Source: Limisalsivibrio acetivorans (GTDB lineage Bacteria > Chrysiogenota > Deferribacteres > Deferribacterales > Geovibrionaceae). Taken from it: a DNA stretch of 64,000 nt. Within the stretch, counting starts at the first letter, position 1. Each line of letters begins with the position of its first letter. A model generated the notes under the pieces. It did not search any database. It was not told the origin of the DNA and worked only from the letters and a program-made list of their open reading frames with translations. A program made the translations under genes and the position numbers. Location: assembly GCF_000421105.1 (NCBI RefSeq), contig NZ_ATWF01000001.1:2057407-2121406 (forward strand), in the 5' to 3' direction. Shown one piece after another: positions 37,165 through 60,978 of this stretch.

Positions 37165-37182
37165 AAATGCCGAGACCGGAAT
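37165..37182. repeat. Left attachment site (att-like repeat of tRNA-Leu 3' end)
   Basis: AAATGCCGAGACCGGAAT here matches AAATGCCCGAGACCGGAAT at 49643-49661 except for one missing C. The right copy is the 3' end of tRNA-Leu, so this is the displaced end left by integration. Confidence 0.8.
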
Positions 37183-37241
37183 GTAAGTCGTCTTGTATGT
37201 TATTGGAAGGGCTGTGTAAATACTCTATCGGTATGTTCTTG

Positions 37242-37261
37242 TACCGTCATATGTACCGTCA
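37242..37261. repeat. Left arm-type recombinase sites (TACCGTCA x2)
   Basis: TACCGTCA occurs twice with 12-bp periodicity. The same pair with the same spacing is found at 49510-49529 near the other end, the pattern expected for integrase or excisionase arm sites. Confidence 0.65.
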
Positions 37262-37386
37262 AGAAATCTATGCTATATAATTATTATCAAAAATAGATAA
37301 TCATACACCCTATAGGCCATCACCGATTATTGGGCATATTTGACACGTATTTAACTTGATTACATAACACGTTGCTTGAGTATAGA

Positions 37387-37998
37387 CTATAGAGATACGA
37401 TCCCCCCCTCCCTTTTCACCATAAACTTGAAGTTGGCTAATTCAAGCATTTCAAGATCTCCAGAACCATTACCGTAAGCATAAATATCGGTATAGTCTTC
37501 TAGCTTTAGTAGCTCTTTTATTCTTTTGGCTTTTTCGAAACCGTTGCAATTATGCCCCTTTATCTTACCTGTTAATTTGCCCTGTGTGACTTCGATTTTA
37601 GTTGAAAGGAGTTCTAGGCCTTGTTCCTTACACCATATATGCAGGTAGTCATTTAGCGAGGCTGAGACCACAATAATACGGTCTCCGTTCTCTCTATGCT
37701 GATTAAGAATCTTTGTTGTGTCTTCTCTTAAAATTGTGGGGATAATATACCTTGAATAGTTGCAAGCCTTATTTTGGAACTTATCATATATTTCACCAGC
37801 AAAAAATAGACTCAGAAATATCTCTTTCATTCTATGACCACTTATCAGTTTGGTCTTATACATAATTAATAGTGGTGATAGAGCTGTCATGAATAAATAG
37901 AACAACCAACGGCCTTTGTAATATTTTGCAAAGTCTAACAAGCTATCTGTATTTGTAAGAGTCCCATCAAAATCAAACAGCACTAGAGTTTTATTCAT
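37387..37998 (-). CDS. HAD-IB family phosphatase, predicted polyprenyl-phosphoribose 5-phosphatase
   Basis: A 203-residue HAD hydrolase with motif I LFDFDGTLTNTDSLLDF, motif II in VVSASLNDYLHIWCKEQG, and motif III/IV in YAYGNGSGDLEMLELA. A hydrophobic segment near residues 30-47 suggests membrane association. It is the last gene of the cargo operon, 1 nt after the DprE2-like gene. In the mycobacterial arabinose-lipid pathway a phosphatase removes the 5-phosphate from decaprenyl-phosphoryl-phosphoribose; this protein could fill that step although it is of a different fold from Rv3807c. Role is inferred from context. Confidence 0.8.
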   Translation of the reverse strand: MNKTLVLFDFDGTLTNTDSLLDFAKYYKGRWLFYLFMTALSPLLIMYKTKLISGHRMKEIFLSLFFAGEIYDKFQNKACNYSRYIIPTILREDTTKILNQHRENGDRIIVVSASLNDYLHIWCKEQGLELLSTKIEVTQGKLTGKIKGHNCNGFEKAKRIKELLKLEDYTDIYAYGNGSGDLEMLELANFKFMVKREGGIVSL

Positions 37999-37999
37999 G

Positions 38000-38731
38000 C
38001 TAAATGCTGAGTCTTTTAAATATAGATTCCGGTATATGCCTTATTATAAACATTATAATCCTCCAGATTCCCTTAGTGTAAAGTATGTTCTTTCTCTTTT
38101 GCTGATACTTATAGATGGCACTAGCCACCTCATCAGGCTGGGCAGTTAACTTTTCCGGCAGGTCCATGTCTTGTGTCATTCTTGTATTTACAAACCCTGG
38201 CTTAACTGTAAGAACAGGTACATTCGAGTTATTTAGCCTATTTCTAAGGCCGCTGAGGTATGCTGTTAAACCTGCTTTTGCGCTCCCATATAAGTAGTTT
38301 GTCTTACGCCCTCTATCTCCAGCAACAGAGCTGACAGCAACAATAAAACCATTCCTATGTTTCTCATAGTCATTGGCAATAATATTCAACAAGCTCACAC
38401 ATCCAGTAAAGTTAGTGTTTATTGTCTTTAAGGTCTCATCTAGTTCTGCTTGTGCTATCTCCTGATCAGCCATATATCCAACACATATTATCGTACCAAC
38501 GGGTCTTTCAGGTAGTTTATCGTAAAACTCAACATGCTCTTCTAAGTTGCACACATCAAGCTCAAATAGTTTAACAGTATTACTACTTCTTAAGGATATA
38601 TCGTTTGCAAAAGCCGTAAGTTCCTCATGTTCACGAGCTGCAAGGTACAGGTTGTAGCCATTTTCCGAATACTTTCTAGCAACTGCTTTAGCAATATCAC
38701 TCTTAGCGCCAACAATTAATACATAGCTCAT
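38000..38731 (-). CDS. SDR oxidoreductase, DprE2-like (decaprenylphosphoryl-2-keto-ribose reductase)
   Basis: A 243-residue short-chain dehydrogenase: cofactor loop LIVGAKSDIAKAVARKYSENG at the N-terminus and catalytic Tyr/Lys in TNYLYGSAKAGLTAYLSGL. Length is close to mycobacterial DprE2 (254). It overlaps the DprE1-like gene by 4 nt (ATGA type), the same gene order as dprE1-dprE2 in mycobacteria. It should reduce the 2-keto intermediate to polyprenyl-phosphoryl-arabinose, completing epimerisation of ribose to arabinose. Confidence 0.85.
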   Translation of the reverse strand: MSYVLIVGAKSDIAKAVARKYSENGYNLYLAAREHEELTAFANDISLRSSNTVKLFELDVCNLEEHVEFYDKLPERPVGTIICVGYMADQEIAQAELDETLKTINTNFTGCVSLLNIIANDYEKHRNGFIVAVSSVAGDRGRKTNYLYGSAKAGLTAYLSGLRNRLNNSNVPVLTVKPGFVNTRMTQDMDLPEKLTAQPDEVASAIYKYQQKRKNILYTKGIWRIIMFIIRHIPESIFKRLSI

Positions 38732-40020
38732 AATCCAAGTCTCCTTGACTGTAAAGAGTTGAGGTGTTTGTCCATCTTATAATCCATCCTCAAGGCTCTG
38801 AAGTCCTTGAGCTTATGGTATCCAGCTGCAAATGCTTCGCTGCTTACTCTTACATCTTTGGTCAAATAGATCCTTCCACCATGCTCGAGAACGATTCTAT
38901 CCAACTCATCCAGAAGTCTAAAAAGTCCTCTTTCTATTTTAAAATCAAGTGCCAGGGAGTAACCCTCTATTGGAAATGAAAGGTAGTTATCATTTGCTTT
39001 CCCATAAAGTTTGAGAACGGCAAGAAAAGATCCTTTACCACTTTTTGATATAGTGTCTAATATTTTTTTAAGCCCATCGTAACTTCTTTCTTTTGGAAGA
39101 ATGAATTGATACTGGGTGAAACCTTTTCGCCCATAAATTCTATTCCAGTTGCCTATAGAGTCCAAAGGATAGAAAAAGCTATCAATGTCAACCTTTTGCT
39201 CGGAAATGCCTTCTGGAGCCTTGCGATAATAGAGTGTATTAAAAAGAGAGACAGAAGCTTTATTAAGGGAGATGGATGGAAATTCGAATGGTATTCCTAA
39301 GCCGCCTTTTGGCTCATATTTAAGCTTTCCTCTTTTACAAAAATCACCAACCATGAGGAGGCACTTACCAATGTTTGGTTCTTTTGCTAAGCAGTCTATC
39401 CAGGCAACAGAGTATGGCAAGTGAGAATAAGCTTCAAACGCCTCAAACGTTTCTTTAAGATTCTTTGTTTTAATTGTTGTCTGTTCAATTGTGCTTGATG
39501 GAATTTTCTTTAACTTAAGCTTAGCAGTTAGAATAACTCCAGTAAGCCCCATCCCTCCACAAGTGGCCTTAAAAAGCTCGTCACTCTTTGCGCACTTTAC
39601 AACTCTGTTATCTGGTAAAAGCAATTCCATTTCCTCAACACAAGAGCTGAAACAGCCTTCTATGTGGTGGTTCTTGCCATGTACATCGCTTGCAATAGCT
39701 CCTCCAACAGTTATTAATTTAGTACCAGGAGTTACTGAAAGAAACCAGCCTTTTGGAACGAATGCGGTTAAAATATCGGAAAGCATAGCTCCGCTTTGAC
39801 AGTGCAGTGTTCCATCACGATTGTCAAAGCTTAGAAAATAGTCATACTTGTTACAAGCTAAAATATTATCTGCAAGAGCGCTGTCACCGTAACTCCTACC
39901 GTTACCGTAAGGTATAAAGTCAGTTCCAGAATTATACAGCTCTTGTGCAGTCTCAATATTCCTTAGTTGCTTAACATTTGATTCTATTACAGGGTATTTT
40001 CCCCAGCCGCATACTTTCAT
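38728..40020 (-). CDS. FAD-dependent oxidase, DprE1-like (decaprenylphosphoryl-ribose 2-oxidase)
   Basis: A 430-residue VAO-type flavoenzyme. FAD-binding PYGNGRSYGDSAL (near 38-50) and GGAIASDVHGKNHH (107-119; His114 aligns with the His of the same motif in mycobacterial DprE1) are clear, as are SFLAVLKLYG and GGRIYLTKD, with the Lys needed for catalysis. The residue aligned to Cys387 of M. tuberculosis, the covalent benzothiazinone target, is Ala357. It would oxidise polyprenyl-phosphoryl-ribose at C2. Tight spacing to GtrA upstream and DprE2 downstream. Confidence 0.88.
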   Translation of the reverse strand: MKVCGWGKYPVIESNVKQLRNIETAQELYNSGTDFIPYGNGRSYGDSALADNILACNKYDYFLSFDNRDGTLHCQSGAMLSDILTAFVPKGWFLSVTPGTKLITVGGAIASDVHGKNHHIEGCFSSCVEEMELLLPDNRVVKCAKSDELFKATCGGMGLTGVILTAKLKLKKIPSSTIEQTTIKTKNLKETFEAFEAYSHLPYSVAWIDCLAKEPNIGKCLLMVGDFCKRGKLKYEPKGGLGIPFEFPSISLNKASVSLFNTLYYRKAPEGISEQKVDIDSFFYPLDSIGNWNRIYGRKGFTQYQFILPKERSYDGLKKILDTISKSGKGSFLAVLKLYGKANDNYLSFPIEGYSLALDFKIERGLFRLLDELDRIVLEHGGRIYLTKDVRVSSEAFAAGYHKLKDFRALRMDYKMDKHLNSLQSRRLGL

Positions 40021-40022
40021 TT

Positions 40023-40412
40023 CTAACCCTTAAACACATATTTCTTATCTAACTTATACTTTATTAAATAGCCTATAGAAAGACCGGTCACTGCCCCTAA
40101 ATACTTTGCTAGTTTAAAGTCAAAAATGTAGTTAAAACTAATCTCAAAACTCCAGAATATTAGTGTAGTGATTACACCCATAGAAGTGTAAAGGATAAAC
40201 TTAATACTATCATCAAGTTTATTCTTTGTTATGTAATAAAAGATATATCTTTTATCAAGGATATACTTAGTCACCAGCCCAAACAAAGTTCCCCAGAATA
40301 TTGCGATATATAAAGAGTATGTACCTGCGTATATCTTGAGTGAAAGGAACTGTGAGGAAAGATTAACGATTGTTGAGATTCCTGCAAAGATTATATATTT
40401 AACTGCTATCAT
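40023..40412 (-). CDS. GtrA-family membrane protein
   Basis: A 129-residue protein with four TM segments (FAGISTIVNLSSQFLSL start, GLVTKYILDKRYIFYY loop), typical of GtrA/DPMS_TMD flippase-like proteins. The ATG at 40412 overlaps the UbiA stop as ATGA, so coupling is clear; a longer frame from 40448 would run inside the UbiA gene and is rejected. The mycobacterial arabinose-lipid locus contains Rv3789, also GtrA-like and of similar size, next to dprE1. It probably helps move or organise polyprenyl-phosphoryl-arabinose at the membrane. Confidence 0.85.
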   Translation of the reverse strand: MIAVKYIIFAGISTIVNLSSQFLSLKIYAGTYSLYIAIFWGTLFGLVTKYILDKRYIFYYITKNKLDDSIKFILYTSMGVITTLIFWSFEISFNYIFDFKLAKYLGAVTGLSIGYLIKYKLDKKYVFKG

Positions 40413-41269
40413 ACGAGCTTTACCAAGACAAAGAACAACGTTATCCATAGAAAGATTGTGACTTGTAGAAATCTGTCTTTTATAACAATCCTTGTCGGGC
40501 TACCGCTATTTTGTTCTACAAAAGTTATTTGCATATAACGCATTATTCCAAGAACAACAAAGAAAGTAGTGATAAAAAGGTTATCAGTACCAAGTCGCTC
40601 AATAACTGAAGGTGATACAGAGTAGAGTAAGTAGGCAACAATAACTACCCCTGACATTAAAACCATAGTTGCATTAACAAACTCTAAGTTATAACCATCA
40701 ATGTTTTTTCTGGTCTGATGTCCCCGAGTTGAAAGCAGAACGTCATCTCTTCTCTTTGCCACAGCAAGGAAGAGGGCTAACAGAAAAGTTACAACAATAA
40801 TCCATTTAGAAAGCTCAATATCGGTAACTGAGTTTCCTGCATATAGCCTTAATACAAAACCAGTAGCAATAATTGCAATATCAACAATAGCAATATGCTT
40901 AAGTTTGAAGGAATAGGCAATATTAAGGACAAAGTATATCAGGAAAACCAGAAGTAGATTACTTGAAAGAAAAAAAGCAGATATAAACGCAGTCAAAGCT
41001 AGGGTAATAGATGTTAAGGCTGCTGTGAATGGTTTGATTATTCCAGAAGCAATTGGCCTATGTTTTTTTACTGGGTGTTTTCTATCTTCTTCCAAATCTT
41101 TAATGTCATTTATTATATAAATCGAGCTTGCTAAAAGAGAGAACAGAGCAAATACAATAAACGTCTTAAATATAATGTAGATATCGAGATTGAATGAGAA
41201 AAAAACGGGAGCGAAAACAAATAAGTTCTTTATATATTGATGCGGTCGAAGGAGCCTAAAAAATCCCAT
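40409..41269 (-). CDS. UbiA-family decaprenyl-phosphate phosphoribosyltransferase-like protein
   Basis: A 286-residue prenyltransferase with about eight TM segments. The first Asp-rich motif is in YIINDIKDLEEDRKHPVKKH (near 65-85), followed by RPIASG, and a second site near YNLEFVNATMVL, matching Rv3806c-type enzymes that join phosphoribosyl pyrophosphate to polyprenyl phosphate. The start RPHQYIKNLFVFAPVFFS block is also typical. ATG 41269 is chosen with a GGTGA motif upstream; it lies 1 nt after the preceding stop. This is the committed step of the predicted arabinose-lipid pathway. Confidence 0.85.
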   Translation of the reverse strand: MGFFRLLRPHQYIKNLFVFAPVFFSFNLDIYIIFKTFIVFALFSLLASSIYIINDIKDLEEDRKHPVKKHRPIASGIIKPFTAALTSITLALTAFISAFFLSSNLLLVFLIYFVLNIAYSFKLKHIAIVDIAIIATGFVLRLYAGNSVTDIELSKWIIVVTFLLALFLAVAKRRDDVLLSTRGHQTRKNIDGYNLEFVNATMVLMSGVVIVAYLLYSVSPSVIERLGTDNLFITTFFVVLGIMRYMQITFVEQNSGSPTRIVIKDRFLQVTIFLWITLFFVLVKLV

Positions 41270-41270
41270 T

Positions 41271-43222
41271 TTAGTCACCACTATTTCCTATTATAAAATG
41301 TCCTATTGAGTACTTTTCATCTCCGTCCTCTGGAACTATAAATACTTCATCTGCGATTACTGGGTTATCGAAGAGTACTTCTTTTCTATTAAGTCCAGTA
41401 GAACCATATTGTCCATAAACTCTTACATTTTCGACGATTTTATCTTTGTTTACAAATATAACTGTGTAAAGATCAGTGTGGTCATATGAGATATCAAACG
41501 ATTTAATTGACATCGCCGTATTTAAGTTTATGACAAGATAGTGTTCTGGTTTTATTATAACGGTATTTTGATTCCATATATGGCCGCTTCTTTTGGGGGC
41601 TTGAAGCTTTGAAATGTCTATTTTTTGAGTTTCAAGATACTCGATTTTATAGGTGTTAAACTTAAGGTATTCTTCAATATAATGATTATACAAACCTATG
41701 TTTAAATACAGTATATGTTTTAATCTTTCTAAGGTAAATACATCGCCTCTTGTAATACTTCTAATTGTGTCATAATACTCTGATAAATCATCATTTATTA
41801 TTAGATTCTTATTGCTTTGTATAGACTCTTTATAGCCATATGGAAGACTTCTTACGAAATGCCCGATTCTCCAGTTAGTGTTAAAGTCTTGTGGTATTTT
41901 TGACAACAATGGATCTACAAGTCCACACTTATCAATAATATAGTGCTCTGGTCCGTGCCAAACGCCAAAAAAACCTATTCCGGCTTTTCTTGTGTGTACA
42001 TTGGCATAACTATTACCAATATTAGTATCGTAAACACTCTCTTTATAATTCAAGCCGTAGTTGTTTGAGAGACTAGCAAAAAGGCTTCTTTTCCTTGAAG
42101 AGTAATATTTTCTCTCATCAGCTATTCCAGTTCCTCTGATGTTGTCTTTACTAGCAGTGACCAACCCATTTCTCATAACCTTAGGAGAGTTGATATTTAT
42201 TGACGAAAGCCCAAATAGTAAGATGATGAAAAAGAAAATATTTATATTTTTAAGACGGTGATAATTAAAACTAGACACTACTAACGCTGTAGCAAAAAAA
42301 GGTACTGCAAAAAATCTTCCAGACATAAAATCGCCGCCTATTTTTAGGATATAGAGCAAATAGAGCAAGACGCCAAATGATAAAAGCTTGTGTAGTATGC
42401 TTCTGCTGACTATTGATGCGATTAGTGCTGTAATAATGACACCTATTGTAAATGGATCGAACTGAATTACGTCGATATAGTACAAGATACCTTGCTTCAT
42501 AAGTTCATACTTTGGTAGACCTGTATTCAGTTTGGCATATGCAGTATTAGGGAGAGGGAGGCCGTAGTAGACTAATGAAAAGAATTCCCATATTATAAAC
42601 GGAATTGAGCCAACAAATAAACATTTAAGCGCATTTGTAGTATTATTGACTTTTAGCTGTTGATAAACGATATATATTTGTGAAGGAAGTGCTATTAATA
42701 TTAAATCTGGCCTGTTGAGGAACATAAAAAAAACAGTAACCAACTCGTAGAGATACTTTTTTCAAAGTTTGAATCTGTAATTTTTGCAAAGTTAACTATG
42801 TAAAATGAAATTAGCAAGAATGATAAAGGGTTTTCTAATCCAGATGTTGAGTAATCAATGAATGCTTGTGAGAAGAACAGTATAAGCAAGAAAATTATAG
42901 AACATGTAATATCTTTGAAGTAGTATTTTATTGCAACTATCAGAGATGCCAAAACTGTTATAATTGATATTGCGATAGTTGAGTAATATATATGTCCAAA
43001 AATAAGATAAGCAAAAGTAAGAACAATAAACCAAAGAGTGTGAGTATAAGCCTGAACTCTTTCTCCAACATTAAATACTGGACCAAAACCGTGTGTAAAA
43101 TTCATCACACTTCTTAATGTAATTGCAGCATCATCTGAAATCCAAGAAGTTCTAAGAATGGTAATAAGCAGTAAAGATAATAAGAATGTTACTGCAACTA
43201 TGTTAGTAAAATTCTTATTCAT
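41271..43222 (-). pseudogene. AftB-like arabinofuranosyltransferase (GT-C), split by a frameshift at T8
   Basis: Two overlapping frames (43222-42701 and 42743-41271) make one protein. The N-terminal part has a first TM and then SWISDDAAITLRSVMNFTHG, GERVQAYTHTLWF, the loop with catalytic-type Asp pair and GYTNPLW-like motif of AftB and relatives. The second frame continues with NRPDLILIALP, more TM segments and a C-terminal periplasmic domain. The frame changes at a run of eight T on the coding strand (A8 at 42726-42733); one extra T would give a single 650-residue protein, close to mycobacterial AftB (about 627). It could be a mutation, phase variation, transcriptional slippage or a sequencing error. 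Confidence 0.75.
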
Positions 43223-44372
43223 GAGAATTCACACCTGTTATTAGTTTTTCTTTAGAGTTACTGTTTGCAACATTTCGTATGTAACTGTCTATATAGAACA
43301 AGAAAAGAGGTATGATTATTGGGTAAATAATTCCTAACGTCCTAGTCTTTTGGCCAGATAGAAGTATTATTACTGTCATTATGACAGGTATCGCTAAAGA
43401 GCTTTTTGCAAGAAATCTTGATTTGTTTATATTAAGAAGCCCTGCCCAGACAAAAGAAAATGCACAAAAGAAAGCTATTAATGTATCAATAAAACCATTC
43501 CAGGAAAGGAAATGGTTTAGATAACCTTTAGGGAATTCACCTTCAAGAAGATTATAGCCGTAGTTTACTTCAGCCAAACCTCCACCTAAAAAATACCTCA
43601 GCAATACAAAGGTTATTCCTGGTATACTGGCTATTATAAGAGTTTTGAAATTCATCGATGAAAATAGATTTCTTAACGATAGATTGTGAAAAATCCATAA
43701 GAAAGATGCAACAAGTAAAATCTCCTTTGTCATCACACCTAGAACTGACGAAAATATAAAAAGTAGCACATTTTCCCTTTGAATAGAGATCATAATTAGT
43801 ATCATCCAAAAGAAACTAAATATCTCAAGCATGGGCAATATTAAAGTATTTGTTGTTGTTACCATCGTAACAAATAGAATATTGCCGAATAGTGTAGTTA
43901 CATGATTGAAGCCAAGCTTTAAAAGATAGTCTCTAAATATGAGAACGATGGCTGTTAAAAGTATAATATTAAGTATTAGGTATGCCTTATAATAGCTAGT
44001 ATTAAGTATATGTTTTATGAGTTTTGCTATTGAAGTAGGTAGGATTCTGTACTTGTAAGGTGGTTTACCACTGGACTGTTCAATTGTTTGAGCTAAATAG
44101 AATCTTGAATCTCCACTGAAAAGAGTCCATTCTTTACTGCTGACCTTTAACTGTTCTTTATATTGATGAAACTTGCCAATATCGTCAAAGAATTTTTTGG
44201 GCATGTAGTTAGCAGGTAGTTTTTGCCAATAATATCTTGTAGTTATTCTAGTCTCACTCTTATCATATATTAGATGCAACGATGTTGAGTATATTATTGT
44301 AAACAGTATTAAAAGCTCTAATATGATGAATTGATATTTATGACTATTTTTTAGCATTGTCTTGAGTCTCAT
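43215..44372 (-). CDS. Polytopic membrane protein, possible second GT-C glycosyltransferase
   Basis: A 385-residue protein with an N-terminal TM, a soluble loop (about 40-130) containing GDSRFYLAQ and PPYKYRILPTSIA, and then eight to nine TM segments. The layout (short TM, large first periplasmic loop with acidic residues, many TMs) is that of GT-C glycosyltransferases, but I cannot name the family. It overlaps the esterase gene by 29 nt and the AftB-like gene by 8 nt. It may add another sugar from a polyprenyl-phosphate donor or recognise the acceptor. Confidence 0.65.
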   Translation of the reverse strand: MRLKTMLKNSHKYQFIILELLILFTIIYSTSLHLIYDKSETRITTRYYWQKLPANYMPKKFFDDIGKFHQYKEQLKVSSKEWTLFSGDSRFYLAQTIEQSSGKPPYKYRILPTSIAKLIKHILNTSYYKAYLILNIILLTAIVLIFRDYLLKLGFNHVTTLFGNILFVTMVTTTNTLILPMLEIFSFFWMILIMISIQRENVLLFIFSSVLGVMTKEILLVASFLWIFHNLSLRNLFSSMNFKTLIIASIPGITFVLLRYFLGGGLAEVNYGYNLLEGEFPKGYLNHFLSWNGFIDTLIAFFCAFSFVWAGLLNINKSRFLAKSSLAIPVIMTVIILLSGQKTRTLGIIYPIIIPLFLFYIDSYIRNVANSNSKEKLITGVNSHE

Positions 44373-45249
44373 AGCCCATTAGAAATGTTCGAATTACATT
44401 TAGCAGGCTTATTCTTTTTGTCAAATTCTCATAATAATAACCATGAACAAGTGTTCTTGAATTACAGAGGTATGAAGTATTACCAGCTTTATTAATCTTC
44501 ATATTTGTATCCCATGAGTCTTCATACGGCACTGTGTTATCTCTGTCACCATGGACAATAAGCGTGGTAGGCAGACCAGGTGAAATATAATTATATGGCT
44601 CAATAAATCTTGCATTCACTCTATAATCTTTTCTGTAATAACCACCTTCCCTTAAGCGTGTTACTGGATTTATAAGGACAAGTTTACTCGGCTTAACATT
44701 AAGATTATATGAAAATAAGGGTATTGTTAGCATAGAAAGCGCTAAGTGCCCGCCCGCAGACTCTCCACCAACAATAAAGTTATCGACATAGCTTCTGGTT
44801 CTATGTTTGTTATATGCCCATAGATATGCATATTTTGCATCTCTGACTGATATAAAAGGCATATGAGAGTCCCATACTTTTGTGTACTCTGGAAGGTGTA
44901 CAGCGAAGCCTAGGCTCGCAAAATACTCTCCTATGAAAGATATTTGTTCAGGCTTGCCTCCAGTCCAGCCACCACCGTGGAAAAATACTATTACACCTTT
45001 GGGCTTATTCAAAGGATAATATGAAATGACTCCTATGTACTTATCTTGAGCCTTGTATTTTTCTTTTTTTATTGTGTAGCCGTTTTTTTCAAATTGCTCG
45101 AGCGGTACTGGGTTATAGTTGTATATTTCGGTAAAATTACCAGTGCATTGATAACGAATAATGTATGGAGAAAGATCGTATGCCTTAGCCATATGATTGT
45201 TAGTAACTAAAAGTAACAAGGCAATTATTAAATTTAAAACTTTTTGCAT
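44344..45249 (-). CDS. Secreted alpha/beta hydrolase (esterase/lipase family)
   Basis: A 301-residue hydrolase with a signal peptide (about residues 1-23, ending MAKA). It has the HSL-type oxyanion motif FFHGGGWTGG, the nucleophile elbow GGESAGGHLAL, an Asp in VHGDRDNTVPYE and a late His (LVHGYYY). It should act in the periplasm or at the surface as an esterase, perhaps trimming or moving acyl groups on the glycan made by this operon. It is the first gene of the cargo operon, so its upstream gap should carry the promoter. Confidence 0.8.
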   Translation of the reverse strand: MQKVLNLIIALLLLVTNNHMAKAYDLSPYIIRYQCTGNFTEIYNYNPVPLEQFEKNGYTIKKEKYKAQDKYIGVISYYPLNKPKGVIVFFHGGGWTGGKPEQISFIGEYFASLGFAVHLPEYTKVWDSHMPFISVRDAKYAYLWAYNKHRTRSYVDNFIVGGESAGGHLALSMLTIPLFSYNLNVKPSKLVLINPVTRLREGGYYRKDYRVNARFIEPYNYISPGLPTTLIVHGDRDNTVPYEDSWDTNMKINKAGNTSYLCNSRTLVHGYYYENLTKRISLLNVIRTFLMGYETQDNAKK

Positions 45250-45350
45250 ATTATACCTTCAAGCATTTCATTGTTCTGTTTATCACTATTAGAAAAGAAA
45301 TGGTATCCCTGTAAACATCTAGTCAATAATGATGAGGTGCTTCAATTAAA

Positions 45351-45463
45351 GAGGTTTTATAGGTTTTTAGCCCTATACGCATACCTGAATATGTTGACTT
45401 TTATTGAGCATATTGTGGAGGTGTCTTTACACACTTAGATACAGATACAAACTATAAAACCTC
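45351..45463. repeat. Long-range inverted repeat and AGGTTTTA-type repeats in the island
   Basis: In the 319-bp gap between the esterase and DUF3987 genes, GAGGTTTTATAG (45351-45362) and CTATAAAACCTC (45452-45463) form a perfect 12-bp inverted repeat 89 bp apart. Each arm is followed by a further partial copy (AGGTTTTTAG; CTAAAACCTA). The gap holds no other gene. It may be a regulatory or replication/excision site of the island. Confidence 0.5.
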
Positions 45464-45568
45464 TAAAACCTACAGAACTATACATGTGAAACTGAACGTG
45501 GAGTAAATAGAGAGAAGGACAGAGCCCCGGAAAGAACCAGGTCTCTGCCCCTCTGCTCTGGGGGGGGG

Positions 45569-47203
45569 TTAAATCTTCTTAACGTTAGGGTTTATATAAT
45601 AGTCTAGTCCTTGCGGTCTGCCGCCTTTACTGCCTCTGTTAGTTGGCTTGACACTTTTTATCCAGTTAAGCTGTTCTAAGTATTCAAGAGCATCTTTTAT
45701 TACTTCAGTATTTTCCAGCATTGACCAGCCCTTACGTTTAATATCGGCCACCTTAAACGGTGTAGGTAAATCATTATCTTCATTTCTAAGCTTTTTAGAT
45801 AGGCTCTTAGATACATTATATATATAATCTTCATTAATATCATACAAACGCATTGCGTGACTCTCTAAGTATTCGCACCATTGAATAGCCAGTTTCAAAC
45901 TTTCTACAGAAATGTTTTTTTCAAAGTTTTCTGAACAAATATCTGTTAGATGGAATATCAGAGCCAGCGAAGGCAGAAGAGATTCATATTTGCTGATATG
46001 TTGTCCGAGCATACAGCTATCCATTTCTACAGTACGGGCAATAAGCTCTTTGTCCCAGTCTTCAAAAACTTTCTGAGCCTCTGAATTAAATCTAATGATG
46101 TTATCATTTCCAGACTTTGATTCTAAGCTATCAAAAATTGATCTGTAATCAAGAAATGTAAGTTTGTTAAGTATACTGTATACAGTCTCTTGTGCTTTAT
46201 CATTATTGCTCTCATCAGTGTATTTGCGTTCTGCTGTGTCAGGATAGACCATGAGTTGAAATCGTTGAATAAACCCGTCATTACCTTTCTTACGTAATGA
46301 TTCTGAGATATGTTGTATAAGAACTTCCGGCTGGATACCACCCACAATAGATAAACAGGCATGCTCTACTTTTATGCTTTTTCTGCCTATCCGGTGGTCA
46401 TGATAGGGAGAGTCACCATTCCATGATTCTAGCAGAATTGTCTTCTTTTGTTCATAGCCTTTCTTGTTTAAACTATCAAGCAGAGCGGATATTTCATCAC
46501 GATAGTAGAGCAAGCCCTGAGGGTTTTCGCTTAACAACTCCATCAGCGCCTCAGCTGTTACATCATTTATTTTTAGTTGTCTTTTCGATGGAATGCTAGA
46601 AAGGTTTTCTTTATGCTTACGTATTTCCATGGTGATATTTCTTGCTTCTTGAATAGTAGTAGCTTTACATTTCTTAACCTCTAAACCCTTAATTACAGTA
46701 TTAATGGCATCCCTCTCATTCTCATATTTTTCTGAGTAGTGCTTACTAATTTCATTCTCTAAATACCTTATAGGCCTGTTAAGAGCTGCTGTTAAAGCAG
46801 GGCTTTTCTTAGTTGAAGGATCTCCCACTACTATACCCCAAAGGTTTGGAACAACTTTCCATGAAGTATCTTTGCGTTTCGGTATAACTTTTAACTCTCT
46901 GCCAATTAATGAGCCTGTGAGAGTAATCAAAGGTACTGCAATATACTCTAGTGGAACTTGTAATCGGTATGACACATCAACAATAAAGTCTCTGTATGCT
47001 TTCGGTAACATACCACTTGTTAATTTAATAACAGGCCTGAGACCCTTTTCAAATTCTTCAGGTCGCTGCCATTCGAATGTATCAGGGTCTCCAATTAATT
47101 CTTGATTGATTGACGAATAATAGGTAACATCATTTATTGTATTGGTGTTTTTTTGAAGCTCATGTACAGTCGCACCTGCCATGGGCTTTTCCTTTTGATT
47201 CAT
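45569..47203 (-). CDS. DUF3987 family protein (YfjI-like, mobile-element replication type)
   Basis: A 544-residue DUF3987 protein. Visible features are VPLITLTGSLIGRELKVIPK, the Walker-like GVVGDPSTKKSPAL region (IVVGDPSTKKSPAL), LLYYRDEISALLDSL and SIVGGIQPEVL, characteristic of the family found in phages, ICEs and P4-like islands and thought to work in DNA replication or mobilisation. It overlaps the AlpA-like gene by 4 nt. A run of nine G directly follows the stop and lies outside the coding frame. Confidence 0.8.
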   Translation of the reverse strand: MNQKEKPMAGATVHELQKNTNTINDVTYYSSINQELIGDPDTFEWQRPEEFEKGLRPVIKLTSGMLPKAYRDFIVDVSYRLQVPLEYIAVPLITLTGSLIGRELKVIPKRKDTSWKVVPNLWGIVVGDPSTKKSPALTAALNRPIRYLENEISKHYSEKYENERDAINTVIKGLEVKKCKATTIQEARNITMEIRKHKENLSSIPSKRQLKINDVTAEALMELLSENPQGLLYYRDEISALLDSLNKKGYEQKKTILLESWNGDSPYHDHRIGRKSIKVEHACLSIVGGIQPEVLIQHISESLRKKGNDGFIQRFQLMVYPDTAERKYTDESNNDKAQETVYSILNKLTFLDYRSIFDSLESKSGNDNIIRFNSEAQKVFEDWDKELIARTVEMDSCMLGQHISKYESLLPSLALIFHLTDICSENFEKNISVESLKLAIQWCEYLESHAMRLYDINEDYIYNVSKSLSKKLRNEDNDLPTPFKVADIKRKGWSMLENTEVIKDALEYLEQLNWIKSVKPTNRGSKGGRPQGLDYYINPNVKKI

Positions 47204-47406
47204 ATTTGAGCCTCATTGTTTGTTCTGGAATCATTAATTCTCTGGTCAATCCACTCAATTACTTCACTCTCTAGCCACCCGACTGAACGTGTGCTGAGCT
47301 TGATTGACTTAGGAAAGGTTCCTTTTTCCATCTTCGCATAAATTGATGATCTGGATAGGCCTGTGATTGCTTCGACTTGCTTACGCCGTAAAAGATTTTT
47401 TCTCAT
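47200..47406 (-). CDS. AlpA-family DNA-binding regulator/excisionase-like
   Basis: A 68-residue helix-turn-helix protein: LLRRKQVEAITGLSRSSIYA, MEKGTFPKSIKLSTRSVGWL and ESEVIEWI are the standard AlpA/MerR-like excisionase blocks. In P4-like islands this protein activates the integrase or works as recombination directionality factor. It is coupled to the DUF3987 gene by a 4-nt overlap. Confidence 0.88.
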   Translation of the reverse strand: MRKNLLRRKQVEAITGLSRSSIYAKMEKGTFPKSIKLSTRSVGWLESEVIEWIDQRINDSRTNNEAQI

Positions 47407-47504
47407 ACTTTTCCTCGTTTTATTTTGTGTAGATAACGATATATTATGAAAAGTAAATAAGCGTATGCAAAATACTATGTTGTTATTTTACCAACAGAGA
47501 AAGA

Positions 47505-48272
47505 CTAAAAATTAAAGTCACTGGTACGTTTGATCATGTGTGCAAGATACTCATGGCGCTCATTTTTGTTTAGTGAGTCAAAATGATTAAGTATCTGATT
47601 TATTTTCTTTTTGTCTAAATAAAATGAGTTAACCTTATCTCTGCGGTGACCTAAAATTGAGTCATAAGATGAACTAAGCTTCTTCGCTAAATAATCACAA
47701 CCGGATTCCTTTAATTCAGTAGCATTATTCTTTGTAGGCGGGATATTCAGTATAAACTCTAATGCCCATAAGGCTAATGCCACATCAGCACTGATATAAT
47801 AGTAATCTGTCTGAGGGGTTCTATCCTCAATATTTTTCCCTCTGCCAACCTTCTTGAGTGTGCCTGCTGTATTATCAACACAATAGGCAATGACTGATTC
47901 GGGGAGTTGTTGATATTGGTGACCTGCTTCTAGATTTTCTTTAATAGCAGAACTCAAAACATTTCTTATAAATTTATTTTTTTTGTTATGAGCTAAGTAA
48001 TCTAAATAATCAAAATTACCAATCATAGCTTTATTATGTTCTGTTGTTAAGTCATCTATTGGTTCTTTTCTTTTGTGGAATATCAACTGGAGTATGATAT
48101 CAATTATCTCCTCTTTCGATATTTCCTTTATTTGGTTATTATCTCCATCGAAAAGCTCAAGGCTAGCAATATAGCACTTATACTCCTCCCAAAACATAAG
48201 AAGTTTTGCACACCTTGTCAGCTCCTTGAAATTTAGTTTGATTTTAATCTTTCTAGACAATCCGACCACCAT
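47505..48272 (-). CDS. Island-encoded protein of unknown function
   Basis: A 255-residue AT-rich, Lys/Asn-rich soluble protein with no recognised domain. It has no signal peptide or TM. Its first 40 nt overlap the end of the integrase gene if the first start is used; a later Met (MFWEEYK, about residue 27) is also possible. It lies between integrase and AlpA-like genes, a position often held by island accessory or regulatory genes. Confidence 0.6.
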   Translation of the reverse strand: MVVGLSRKIKIKLNFKELTRCAKLLMFWEEYKCYIASLELFDGDNNQIKEISKEEIIDIILQLIFHKRKEPIDDLTTEHNKAMIGNFDYLDYLAHNKKNKFIRNVLSSAIKENLEAGHQYQQLPESVIAYCVDNTAGTLKKVGRGKNIEDRTPQTDYYYISADVALALWALEFILNIPPTKNNATELKESGCDYLAKKLSSSYDSILGHRRDKVNSFYLDKKKINQILNHFDSLNKNERHEYLAHMIKRTSDFNF

Positions 48273-49414
48273 TGCATCATTTTCGTGCGTTCCTTAAGGT
48301 ATTGAGCATGGTTATATGCTGCTTTAACTTTATTCTTTTCCGCATGTGCAAGTTGCATCTCAATTATATCAGAGTTCCATCCATTTTCATGTAAAAGCGT
48401 TGAAGCCATAGCCCTGAAACCGTGACCTGTTATCTGATCTTTTTCAAATCCCATAGTACGCAATGCTGAGTTGATTGTGTTGTTACTCATCGGTCTAGTC
48501 TTTCTGTTTACTGAAGGGAATACGTATTTTTCATTGCCAGATACTTTTTGGATATCCTCGAGTATGCTTACTGACTGAGTTGATAGAGGAACCATATGTA
48601 TCCTGTTCATTTTCATCTTTTCAGCAGGGATTTTCCATATAGCATTATCTAAGTCTATCTCACACCATTCAGCATTTCTAAGTTCTCCAACCCTAGTAAA
48701 AACATTTGGTAAAAGCTTTAAAGCACAGATTGTAACATAACTGCCTTGATAGTCTTCAATAGCCCTTAGAAGCGCTCCTACAGCCTTAGGCTCAGTAATT
48801 GTAGCCATGTTCTTATTACGTTTTGGCTTTAGTGCACCTGCTAATGCTTGGCTAGGATCGTTATCGCATCTATCAGTAATAATACCGTACCTGAAAATCT
48901 CTCCGCAGATACCTTTCACTCTGTGGGCTATCTCTATTGCACCTCTATTTTGTATACGGTTTAGTACAGTCAAAAGCTCTCTTGAGGTTATATTGTTTAT
49001 AGGGCGATTACCGATATAGGGTAAGGCATCCTTTTCCAGAAAATGCCACTTTCGTTTTGCTGTATCAGGGTTATACTTTGAAACTGCCTTATCGAACCAC
49101 TCTTTAGCAACATTCCCGAAGCTGTTGATAATATTTTCTTCAGCTTTAGCTTTCTGGTTCTTCTTCTCCTCGTTAGGATCAATATTCTTGGCAATGAGCT
49201 TTCTAGCTTCGTCTCTGCTCTCTCTAGCTTCTTTTAATGAGATGTCAGGATATACTCCTATAGCAAAAGTTTTCCGTCTTCCATGGAACCTATAATCAAG
49301 CCTGAAATATTTGCCTGATTTAGTTACAAGTAGGTACATGCTTTTCTCGTCAGTGATCTTATAATTCTTATCTTTAGGCTTTGCATTTTTAATGACAGTA
49401 TCTGTAAGAGCCAT
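48233..49414 (-). CDS. P4-type tyrosine integrase
   Basis: A 393-residue integrase with the N-terminal DUF4102 arm-binding domain (LTDTVIKNAKPKDKNYKITD) and catalytic domain with Arg in RVGELRNAEW, HGFRAM as His-x-x-Arg, and the nucleophile Tyr in KAAYNHAQYL. It lies 229 bp from the tRNA-Leu 3' end, as usual for islands that integrate into tRNA genes. Copies of TACCGTCA or its complement lie at its start (49414-49421) and in the gap up to the tRNA, likely its arm sites. Confidence 0.93.
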   Translation of the reverse strand: MALTDTVIKNAKPKDKNYKITDEKSMYLLVTKSGKYFRLDYRFHGRRKTFAIGVYPDISLKEARESRDEARKLIAKNIDPNEEKKNQKAKAEENIINSFGNVAKEWFDKAVSKYNPDTAKRKWHFLEKDALPYIGNRPINNITSRELLTVLNRIQNRGAIEIAHRVKGICGEIFRYGIITDRCDNDPSQALAGALKPKRNKNMATITEPKAVGALLRAIEDYQGSYVTICALKLLPNVFTRVGELRNAEWCEIDLDNAIWKIPAEKMKMNRIHMVPLSTQSVSILEDIQKVSGNEKYVFPSVNRKTRPMSNNTINSALRTMGFEKDQITGHGFRAMASTLLHENGWNSDIIEMQLAHAEKNKVKAAYNHAQYLKERTKMMQWWSDCLERLKSN

Positions 49415-49509
49415 GACGGTATAACCTCGGTTATTTTTAATTGATACCGTTAAAACATTATCTATGATTAGATACGCTTGACGGTATAGGATATGTCTGA
49501 ATTATATGG

Positions 49510-49529
49510 TACCGTCACATCTACCGTCA
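49510..49529. repeat. Right arm-type recombinase sites (TACCGTCA x2)
   Basis: TACCGTCA occurs twice with 12-bp periodicity, the same as at the left end (37242-37261). Related copies are TGACGGTA at 49479-49486 and 49414-49421 and TACCGTTA at 49445-49452, all between integrase and tRNA. Confidence 0.65.
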
Positions 49530-49642
49530 ACAGAAGCTGGATATAGCAGGAATATTATGGAATGCATTGGCTCACGAGGCCTTGCAAAAGGCTGTATTTC
49601 ATGAATTTTATAGCTTTCTACAGAACTACCAGGATGCTGCCT

Positions 49643-49661
49643 AAATGCCCGAGACCGGAAT
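49643..49661. repeat. Right attachment site (att-like repeat overlapping tRNA-Leu 3' end)
   Basis: AAATGCCCGAGACCGGAAT; all but the first three bases belong to the tRNA-Leu 3' end. It pairs with 37165-37182 at the left boundary. Confidence 0.8.
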
Positions 49662-49730
49662 CGAACCGGTACAGAGCTTCGCTCCGAGGGATTTTAAGTC
49701 CCTTGCGTCTACCAATTCCGCCACTCGGGC
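49646..49730 (-). tRNA. tRNA-Leu (anticodon UAA)
   Basis: An 85-nt class II tRNA. The acceptor stem GCCCGAG pairs with CTCGGGC, the D-loop reads TGGCGGAATTGGTAGACGC, the anticodon loop CTTAAAA has TAA, and a long variable arm (TCGGAGCGAAGCTCTG) precedes GGTTCGATTCC. Discriminator A is at 49646. CCA is not encoded. The island uses its 3' end as integration site and leaves the gene intact. Confidence 0.96.
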
Positions 49731-49748
49731 AGGCAGTTGTGAACCTGT

Positions 49749-59349: not shown

Positions 59350-60978
59350 ATGTCATACCTCGCACTCGCCAGAAAACTCAGGCCGCAGAACTTTGATGAG
59401 ATAGTCGCACAGGAATTTGTGGTGACTACCCTCAAAAACGCCATGGAGATGGACAGACTTGTCCACGCCTACCTCTTCACAGGCCCCCGTGGCGTGGGTA
59501 AAACCTCCACTGCACGTATATTCGCAAAGGCTCTCAACTGTCTCTCACCAAAGGGTGTTAATCCGTGTAACGAGTGCGAAAACTGCCTTGAGATAACAGG
59601 CGGAACATCCATGGATGTGATAGAGGTGGACGGTGCCTCAAACAGGGGTATCGATGAGATTCGTGACCTGCGTGAGGCGGTTAAATTCTTCCCTGTGAAG
59701 TGCCGGAAGAAGGTGTACATCATCGATGAGGTGCACATGCTCACCGAGCAGGCGTTCAATGCCCTGCTCAAAACCCTTGAGGAACCTCCAGAGCATGCCC
59801 TATTCATCCTTGCAACAACCGATCCCCAGAGGATTCCTGCAACTATAATATCCCGTACCCAGAAATACGACTTCCGTAAGATACCCTTTGAAAGGATGTA
59901 CTCATCACTCAGCGAGATCCTTGCCAAAGAGGGGATCGAGTACGATGAGGATGCCCTTAACCTTGTCATACGAAACTCGGACGGATGCATGCGGGATTCC
60001 CTCTCCATGCTGGATCAGATAATAGCATACACCAACGGGCGTGTGGATGAATCGAACACGGCCTTCCTCCTCGGCTACTCCGAGGCGAGTATCATCGTAG
60101 AGCTTTTCAAGGCTATCCTTGAGGAGCGTAAGGAGGATATAGCAGGGCATATCACCGAGCTGACCTCAAAGGGTGTTAATCTCAAATTTGCCGCAGAGAG
60201 CCTCATAGAGCATACCCGCAATCTGCTTTTCTATATGACTGGCGGGGGAACCCTCAAGGGCTTAACAAGCTATGAGGAGGAGCTTTACAGTGATCTCTCC
60301 TTAAGGGTTACAGAGCATCGGCTCTTCGCCCTCTTTCAGATATTCCAGAAACTGCTCAACGATTTGAAGTTTTTCAGCTTCGATCAGTATGTTTTCGAGT
60401 TCGCCATGTATAAGGCGGCCTCTTTCTCTGCTGTTATCCCTGTCACGGGGGGAACACCCCAGGCTGCGGTATCATCTGCCAGGCAGTCCCCGGCGAGAAG
60501 TGCCCAGCAGTCCCCTTCCCATAAAGCCCCACGGCAGGAGAGCCCATCCCAGGGGGGTGGTGACAAATGGCAGGAGATGATAAAGCATATCTCCGAAGAG
60601 AACGCTCCCGTAGCCTCATATCTCAGCAACGTTTACCTCTCCCGTGTGGAAGGAGATACGCTCTATATAGGTGTTGCAGAGGAAAAGCGATTCTACGTGC
60701 AGATGCTTGAGAAGCCGGAGACGAGGGATTACCTGAACAAAACTGCCGGTAAGTTCTATCCTGGTGTTTCATATATCAAGGCTGTTCTGGATTCGGAGCC
60801 GAAAAAAAAAACGGTAACTGAGAAGAAGAAGGAAAGGGAAACCTACTACGAACGCAAGACAAAGAAGGAAGCCGGAGAAAACGAGGTCGTTAAACAGCTC
60901 AAGCAGGAATTCGAAGGCGAGATTCTTGATATAAAGGTTCTAGGAACACCGGACGGCGATTCGGAACAGACTGAATAG
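59350..60978 (+). CDS. dnaX: DNA polymerase III subunits gamma/tau
   Basis: A 542-residue clamp-loader ATPase: Walker A GPRGVGKTSTARI, zinc Cys cluster NPCNECENC, Walker B YIIDEVHML, sensor segments TTDPQRIPATIISR. Domain III follows, then a Pro/Ser/Gln-rich linker (about 375-400), and a short C-terminal region ending EVVKQLKQEFEGEILDIKVLG, which matches the tau C-terminus. A run of ten A (60802-60811, codons 485-488) is followed at once by stops in both other frames, which suggests a shorter gamma product by slippage. No good ribosome binding site lies close to the ATG. Confidence 0.95.
   Translation: MSYLALARKLRPQNFDEIVAQEFVVTTLKNAMEMDRLVHAYLFTGPRGVGKTSTARIFAKALNCLSPKGVNPCNECENCLEITGGTSMDVIEVDGASNRGIDEIRDLREAVKFFPVKCRKKVYIIDEVHMLTEQAFNALLKTLEEPPEHALFILATTDPQRIPATIISRTQKYDFRKIPFERMYSSLSEILAKEGIEYDEDALNLVIRNSDGCMRDSLSMLDQIIAYTNGRVDESNTAFLLGYSEASIIVELFKAILEERKEDIAGHITELTSKGVNLKFAAESLIEHTRNLLFYMTGGGTLKGLTSYEEELYSDLSLRVTEHRLFALFQIFQKLLNDLKFFSFDQYVFEFAMYKAASFSAVIPVTGGTPQAAVSSARQSPARSAQQSPSHKAPRQESPSQGGGDKWQEMIKHISEENAPVASYLSNVYLSRVEGDTLYIGVAEEKRFYVQMLEKPETRDYLNKTAGKFYPGVSYIKAVLDSEPKKKTVTEKKKERETYYERKTKKEAGENEVVKQLKQEFEGEILDIKVLGTPDGDSEQTE
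60802..60811 (+). promoter_or_regulatory. A10 slippage tract in dnaX
   Basis: The in-frame codons are CCG AAA AAA AAA ACG GTA ACT. Loss of one A reads CGG TAA and gain of one A reads AAC GGT AAC TGA, so either shift terminates within four codons. The Thermus thermophilus dnaX gene makes gamma by transcriptional slippage at A9. Confidence 0.6.

Follow-up and report, generated by a model that had tools for sequence, protein, structure and literature searches.

A candidate D-arabinofuranosylation module with a split AftB-like transferase on a tRNA-Leu element of Limisalsivibrio acetivorans

A candidate arabinofuranosylation operon

Can a set of mycobacterial-type genes for D-arabinofuranose (D-Araf) act as an intact, transferable module in a Gram-negative bacterium? 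The question is raised by positions 37387-45249 of a 64,000-nucleotide stretch of Limisalsivibrio acetivorans DNA (contig NZ_ATWF01000001.1; the whole stretch is hereafter the window), where an initial annotation had described a horizontally acquired operon for making and using polyprenyl-phosphate-arabinose. Homology was assessed against Pfam, NCBIfam, PDB, PHROGs and PADLOC. We judge the locus to be probably a small tRNA-Leu integrative element with a D-arabinofuranosylation module as cargo. Most likely, this module decorates a surface glycan in the periplasm with D-Araf, predicted to be beta-linked, provided that its AftB-like GT-C glycosyltransferase is in frame.

Nine open reading frames (ORFs) occupy positions 37387-45249 on the minus strand, with neighbours overlapping or at most 2 nt apart, and they read as one tight operon. 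They are transcribed in the order esterase, 385-aa polytopic protein, GT-C N-terminal piece, GT-C C-terminal piece, UbiA, GtrA, DprE1, DprE2 and HAD phosphatase. All genes named in the initial annotation are present there on one strand, although the AftB-like enzyme proved to be two ORFs rather than one. A simple scan directly upstream of the operon found no sigma-70-like promoter.

Donor-pathway enzymes

The five genes assigned to synthesis and presentation of the lipid donor are:

40409-41281, minus strand: UbiA-type polyprenyl-phosphate phosphoribosyltransferase (PRK12324.1-4; PDB 8j8j)
40023-40448, minus strand: GtrA-family protein, candidate donor flippase, Rv3789-like (NF037976; Pfam GtrA)
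38728-40020, minus strand: DprE1-like flavin adenine dinucleotide (FAD) oxidase (NF053785; PDB 4aut)
38000-38731, minus strand: DprE2-like short-chain dehydrogenase/reductase (SDR) (NF053786; PDB)
37387-37998, minus strand: HAD-IB phosphatase, predicted polyprenyl-phosphate-ribose-5-phosphate phosphatase (TIGR01490)

The UbiA protein matched the NCBIfam model for decaprenyl-phosphate phosphoribosyltransferase (DPPR synthase) at 8.8e-68 and exceeded the cut-off of the subfamily model PRK12324.1-4 (221 bits; cut-off 207). Mycobacterial DPPR synthase (8j8j) was the only molecule that it matched in PDB (1.4e-46), and the NDxxDxxxD motif is retained in the alignment to this structure. For the DprE1-like protein (NF053785, 1.9e-115) the best PDB match was mycobacterial DprE1 (4aut, 1.1e-72), with the motifs HGKNHH, QYQF and KDxR all retained. 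The DprE2-like protein (NF053786, 4.3e-53) carries the YxxxK motif and matched mycobacterial DprE2 best (21gq_C, 1.3e-27), the next SDR lying 13 orders behind at 4.5e-14. The GtrA protein scored above the cut-off of NF037976 (2.7e-46; Pfam GtrA, 5.1e-7), as did the phosphatase for TIGR01490 (6.5e-34, 117.9 bits), in which the DFDGT motif is present.

The proposal of mycobacterial-type donor enzymes is borne out by these comparisons. Best matches to unrelated oxidases, SDRs and prenyltransferases, named beforehand as the result that would speak against it, did not appear, since the best solved structures were those of mycobacterial DprE1, DPPR synthase and DprE2. The pathway resembles the mycobacterial one (Rv3806c, Rv3790, Rv3791, Rv3789, AftB) in having the same families, with the catalytic and donor-binding residues of AftB also shared, and differs from it as follows. 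A phosphatase is present in the operon, as had been claimed, but it is of the HAD type and belongs to a different family from mycobacterial Rv3807c. In addition, the DprE1-like protein has Ala at the position of the mycobacterial Cys to which benzothiazinones bind (alignment to 4aut); natural benzothiazinone insensitivity would therefore be expected. No homologues of Emb, AftA, AftC or AftD were noted on the island.

The AftB-like glycosyltransferase

The putative transferase is encoded in two pieces:

42701-43222, minus strand: AftB-like GT-C, N-terminal piece, with the D62, T91 and E172 equivalents (NF041481; 9dlf)
41271-42743, minus strand: AftB-like GT-C, C-terminal piece, with the R221, T274 and R372 equivalents and the C-terminal domain (NF041481; 9dlf)

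Both pieces matched the NCBIfam AftB model NF041481 (N piece, 1.2e-14; C piece, 3.5e-7), and each alone found the AftB structure 9dlf (3.6e-12 and 4.5e-4, respectively). A profile built from three intact homologues and the window gene, joined by an X where the frame breaks, matched 9dlf at 7.6e-38 as its sole PDB match. In AftB, D62 is the nucleophile, R221 and R372 bind phosphate, and T91, T274 and E172 contact the donor (PMC12041299). All six residues are identical in the window GT-C, three in each piece, and the AftB-like identity given in the initial annotation is supported. The AftB model matched the window genome and one of 14 control genomes, that of Corynebacterium glutamicum, which makes arabinan. 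By analogy the enzyme should be retaining and yield beta-Araf; the beta linkage is predicted because AftB-type transfer proceeds with retention.

Intact AftB-like GT-Cs also occur in two Campylobacterota-type genomes (loci L110 and L130), and their C-terminal extensions may bind glycan. Together with that of L108, these intact homologues would be better subjects for study than the split gene of the window.

The tRNA-Leu element

The operon lies within an island spanning 37167-49661, defined by a P4-type integrase, a duplication of the attachment site (att) at tRNA-Leu and arm repeats at both ends:

49645-49731, minus strand: tRNA-Leu(TAA), integration site; att is its last 17 nt, 49645-49661
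37167-37182, minus strand: distal att, ATTCCGGTCTCGGCAT, a copy of the tRNA-Leu 3' end that lacks one G
37241-37262, plus strand: paired TACCGTCA repeat lying within the island's distal end, a probable arm site of the integrase
49509-49530, plus strand: paired TACCGTCA repeat lying within the island's tRNA-proximal end
48233-49414, minus strand: P4-type tyrosine integrase, just downstream of tRNA-Leu (Pfam integrase domains; PRK09692, 5.6e-87)
45569-47203, minus strand: DUF3987 replication-type protein (Pfam, 4.4e-71; PHROGs DNA helicase, 3.1e-35)
47505-48272, minus strand: island ORF, function unassigned by homology

A 13-nt exact att core is found in two places only, the tRNA end and 37167-37182, and never in shuffles; likewise, the 22-nt TACCGTCA pattern occurs only at its two listed positions, with 0 expected. 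The G+C content within the island is ∼0.32-0.39, against ∼0.45-0.54 in most flanking kilobases. Three members of the family have the tRNA-Leu beside selD without this island, and their distal flank is non-syntenic. At the same tRNA-Leu, G008 and G005 lack such an insert and G002 (L097) carries other A+T-rich DNA immediately behind the tRNA, which suggests that this tRNA-Leu is an integration hot spot. The att duplication, arm repeats, integrase and low G+C, along with the nesting of the DprE1 sequence among those of Campylobacterota (see below), uphold the earlier view that the operon was acquired horizontally on a tRNA-Leu island.

Searches of Pfam, NCBIfam, PHROGs and PADLOC returned nothing for the ORF at 47505-48272, and the idea that the extra island genes form a defence system was rejected as PADLOC gave no match. 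A run of nine Gs at 45560-45568 directly follows the DUF3987 gene, ∼310 bp upstream of the esterase start; an interrupted ORF was not seen there.

Proposed function and acceptor

From the families of the enzymes, the HAD phosphatase would remove the 5-phosphate, and DprE1 and DprE2 would oxidise and then reduce C2 to give polyprenyl-phosphate-D-Araf, which GtrA may present at the periplasmic face. The AftB-like GT-C shares its DD nucleophile and donor-binding residues with mycobacterial AftB and would then transfer Araf with retention, beta-linked, to a periplasmic surface glycan. In the sequenced cell this final transfer is predicted to be off or weak unless a T8 tract in the GT-C gene slips back, by phase variation or polymerase slippage. 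The two first genes of the operon are, speculatively, candidates for tailoring the acceptor, and might trim or define it:

44344-45249, minus strand: secreted alpha/beta-hydrolase (BD-FAE/Abhydrolase_3), candidate glycan deacylase (Pfam, 2.8e-19)
43215-44372, minus strand: 385-aa polytopic membrane protein, orphan (weak match to the AZOBR_p60025 glycopolymer family, 5.1e-6)

The esterase has a signal-like N terminus, as read from its sequence. The 385-aa protein is possibly a second GT-C or an acceptor-determining protein; its predicted structure (predicted local distance difference test score, 46) was too low in confidence for use, and searches of 60 related genomes and of 45 genomes that bear the cassette found no relatives.

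The broken reading frame and rival explanations

Several observations weigh against a working module. Scores stayed below the NCBIfam equivalog cut-offs for DprE1 (386.6 versus 500), DprE2 (180.5 versus 250) and the GT-C (51.9 bits versus 1050), and we therefore call the last AftB-like rather than AftB. Both the lipid donor and the part of GtrA as a flippase are inferred. For the acceptor the genome offers candidates of more than one kind, with two Wzy/ligase-type (O-antigen polymerase/ligase) proteins and 18 N-methyl pilin-like proteins. Motif IV of the HAD phosphatase reads GNGSGD, with Asn in place of the Asp (GD) found in 38/38 aligned homologues. Finally, the GT-C is split into its two ORFs by a one-base frameshift at the following position, where the coding strand reads CTG TTTTTTTT ATG:

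42726-42733, minus strand: T8 tract where the GT-C frame breaks (T TTT TTA in the N-piece frame)

The N frame ends a few codons past T8, while the C frame, 490 aa long, can be aligned with homologues starting at LNRPD. The frameshift parts D62, T91 and E172 from R221, T274 and R372, so that the N product lacks R221 and R372, both of which are essential in AftB (PMC12041299). Each of the AftB-like homologues L108, L109, L110 and L130 is a single intact ORF. Judged from the split GT-C and the missing motif IV Asp, the operon of this assembly is silent, phase-variable or in decay, and its function in the sequenced strain appears doubtful. The earlier claim of an intact module now modifying its host is unsupported, given the frame break in the GT-C and the loss from the phosphatase of an Asp that is normally an invariant metal ligand.

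The T8 break may be an assembly error, phase variation or recent decay. Decaying island cargo, in which donor enzymes may work while the transferase is a pseudogene, the phosphatase degenerate and no Araf displayed, is a real if doubtful possibility. The Asn in motif IV would possibly be a second sign of decay beside the frameshift, and the 385-aa protein lacks an orthologue in the genomes searched. However, the remaining genes are intact, and the C piece is free of stops over 482 codons (equalled by 0/2000 composition shuffles) with its functional residues kept, so any decay would be recent. An assembly or sequencing error in the homopolymer, with the GT-C in truth intact, is somewhat unlikely: a single-base change in T8 is a classical error type and the four homologues are intact, but other window ORFs with homopolymers of 7-10 bases (e.g. 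A10 at 60802) remain open, and a general homopolymer error thus left no sign in the window. We regard a full-length GT-C made by programmed -1 frameshifting, or by slippage of the transcript, at U8 (U UUU UUA) as very unlikely. A -1 shift at T TTT TTA would indeed join both pieces where the homologues predict, yet no RNA structure was found downstream of T8 (z = +2.07; 198/200 shuffles fold at least as well), and a structured -1 signal was rejected on this ground; moreover, homopolymers as long as T8 recur within the window, and any in-frame T8 followed by A yields the heptamer.

Rather than a glycan, the module could feed Araf to pilin through a TfpW-like transfer, for which D-arabinosylated pilin in P. 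paraeruginosa (PMC12369383) is a precedent and the pilin-like proteins noted above offer candidate acceptors. We consider this very unlikely, as the only GT-C in the PDB that the enzyme matches is AftB, which acts on glycans; the enzyme also has a C-terminal extension, as in other glycan-acting GT-C enzymes, and lies on an island without a pilin gene. A bolder version of the glycan reading, in which the element confers mobile, phase-variable beta-D-arabinofuranosylation through an AftB-type retaining GT-C outside mycolic-acid bacteria, with T8 slippage as the switch altering the surface glycan of a recipient Gram-negative, seems clearly unlikely; if true, phage or antibody recognition of the recipient would change too. 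If functional, the element would be a transferable unit placing a mycobacteria-like sugar on a Gram-negative surface, and an AftB-type enzyme within a Gram-negative donor cassette offers a direct test case for the beta linkage.

Comparison with known systems

A general mechanism of three-component pentofuranose modification has been described for Citrobacter O antigens (Kelly et al. 2024, PMC11127046). That report noted DprE1/E2 homologues in Araf-containing systems and AftB as the beta-linkage precedent, outside of which beta-linked side-chain Araf was not found. The window shares with those systems a polyprenyl-phosphate pentofuranose donor derived from phosphoribosyl pyrophosphate, a HAD-type phosphatase, a flippase and a periplasmic GT-C. 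In the published prototype UbiA and HAD are fused, the flippase is of the MATE type and a GT136 enzyme makes alpha links, whereas the window has separate UbiA and HAD proteins, a GtrA flippase candidate and an AftB-like GT-C with predicted beta linkage.

In P. paraeruginosa PA7/Pa5196, UbiA/DprE-type D-Araf donor genes likewise sit on a genomic island of a Gram-negative, RGP80, and pilin arabinosylation leads to phage resistance (PMC12369383). That system differs in modifying pilin through the transferase TfpW, whose gene sits at the pilin locus, and the phosphatase reported for it comes from a different family. The claim of novelty in the initial annotation was too strong: the donor cassette is widespread in Gram-negatives, also on plasmids, the prototype family has been published (PMC11127046), and the P. 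paraeruginosa genes had already been placed on a genomic island. The donor module is already known in Gram-negatives; the window adds an unusual transferase and a new host group.

Distribution and origin of the donor cassette

A genome scan yielded 79 DprE1 loci, accompanied by DprE2 in 71, UbiA in 68, GtrA in 49, HAD in 37 and all five genes in 29, counts that are lower bounds because of contig ends. UbiA, DprE1 and DprE2 occur together in 61/79 loci, mostly Gram-negative. This co-occurrence, with GT-Cs that are exchangeable between cassette loci, fits a donor module plus an acceptor-specific transferase. Sulfurimonas and other Campylobacterota have the same five-gene cassette in the same order, UbiA-GtrA-DprE1-DprE2-(GT-C)-HAD, with DprE1 identity up to 70%; in these cassettes a GT-C, usually PMT_2-like, separates DprE2 from HAD, whereas the GT-C of the window is AftB-like.

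In the DprE1 tree the window sequence nests among six Campylobacterota sequences (support 99/90), away from that of G008, a relative in the same family whose cassette lies beside sugar-nucleotide and glycosylation genes. The two cassettes were probably acquired separately, given the distance between their DprE1s. Carriage by phages or plasmids was rejected: DprE1 relatives were not found in phages or viral contigs, and those on plasmids, many of them rhizobial, are ≤49% identical.

The close AftB-like type is rare, being found in 2/199 relatives of a Nitratifractor genome, and in one gammaproteobacterial locus an intact AftB-like GT-C immediately precedes DprE1, DprE2 and a phosphatase-like gene. 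An independent cassette, UbiA-GtrA-DprE1-DprE2-HAD, in a same-family relative (L107, 6121-12000) has a DUF6311 protein where the window has the AftB-like GT-C, which points to DUF6311 as a candidate transferase family.

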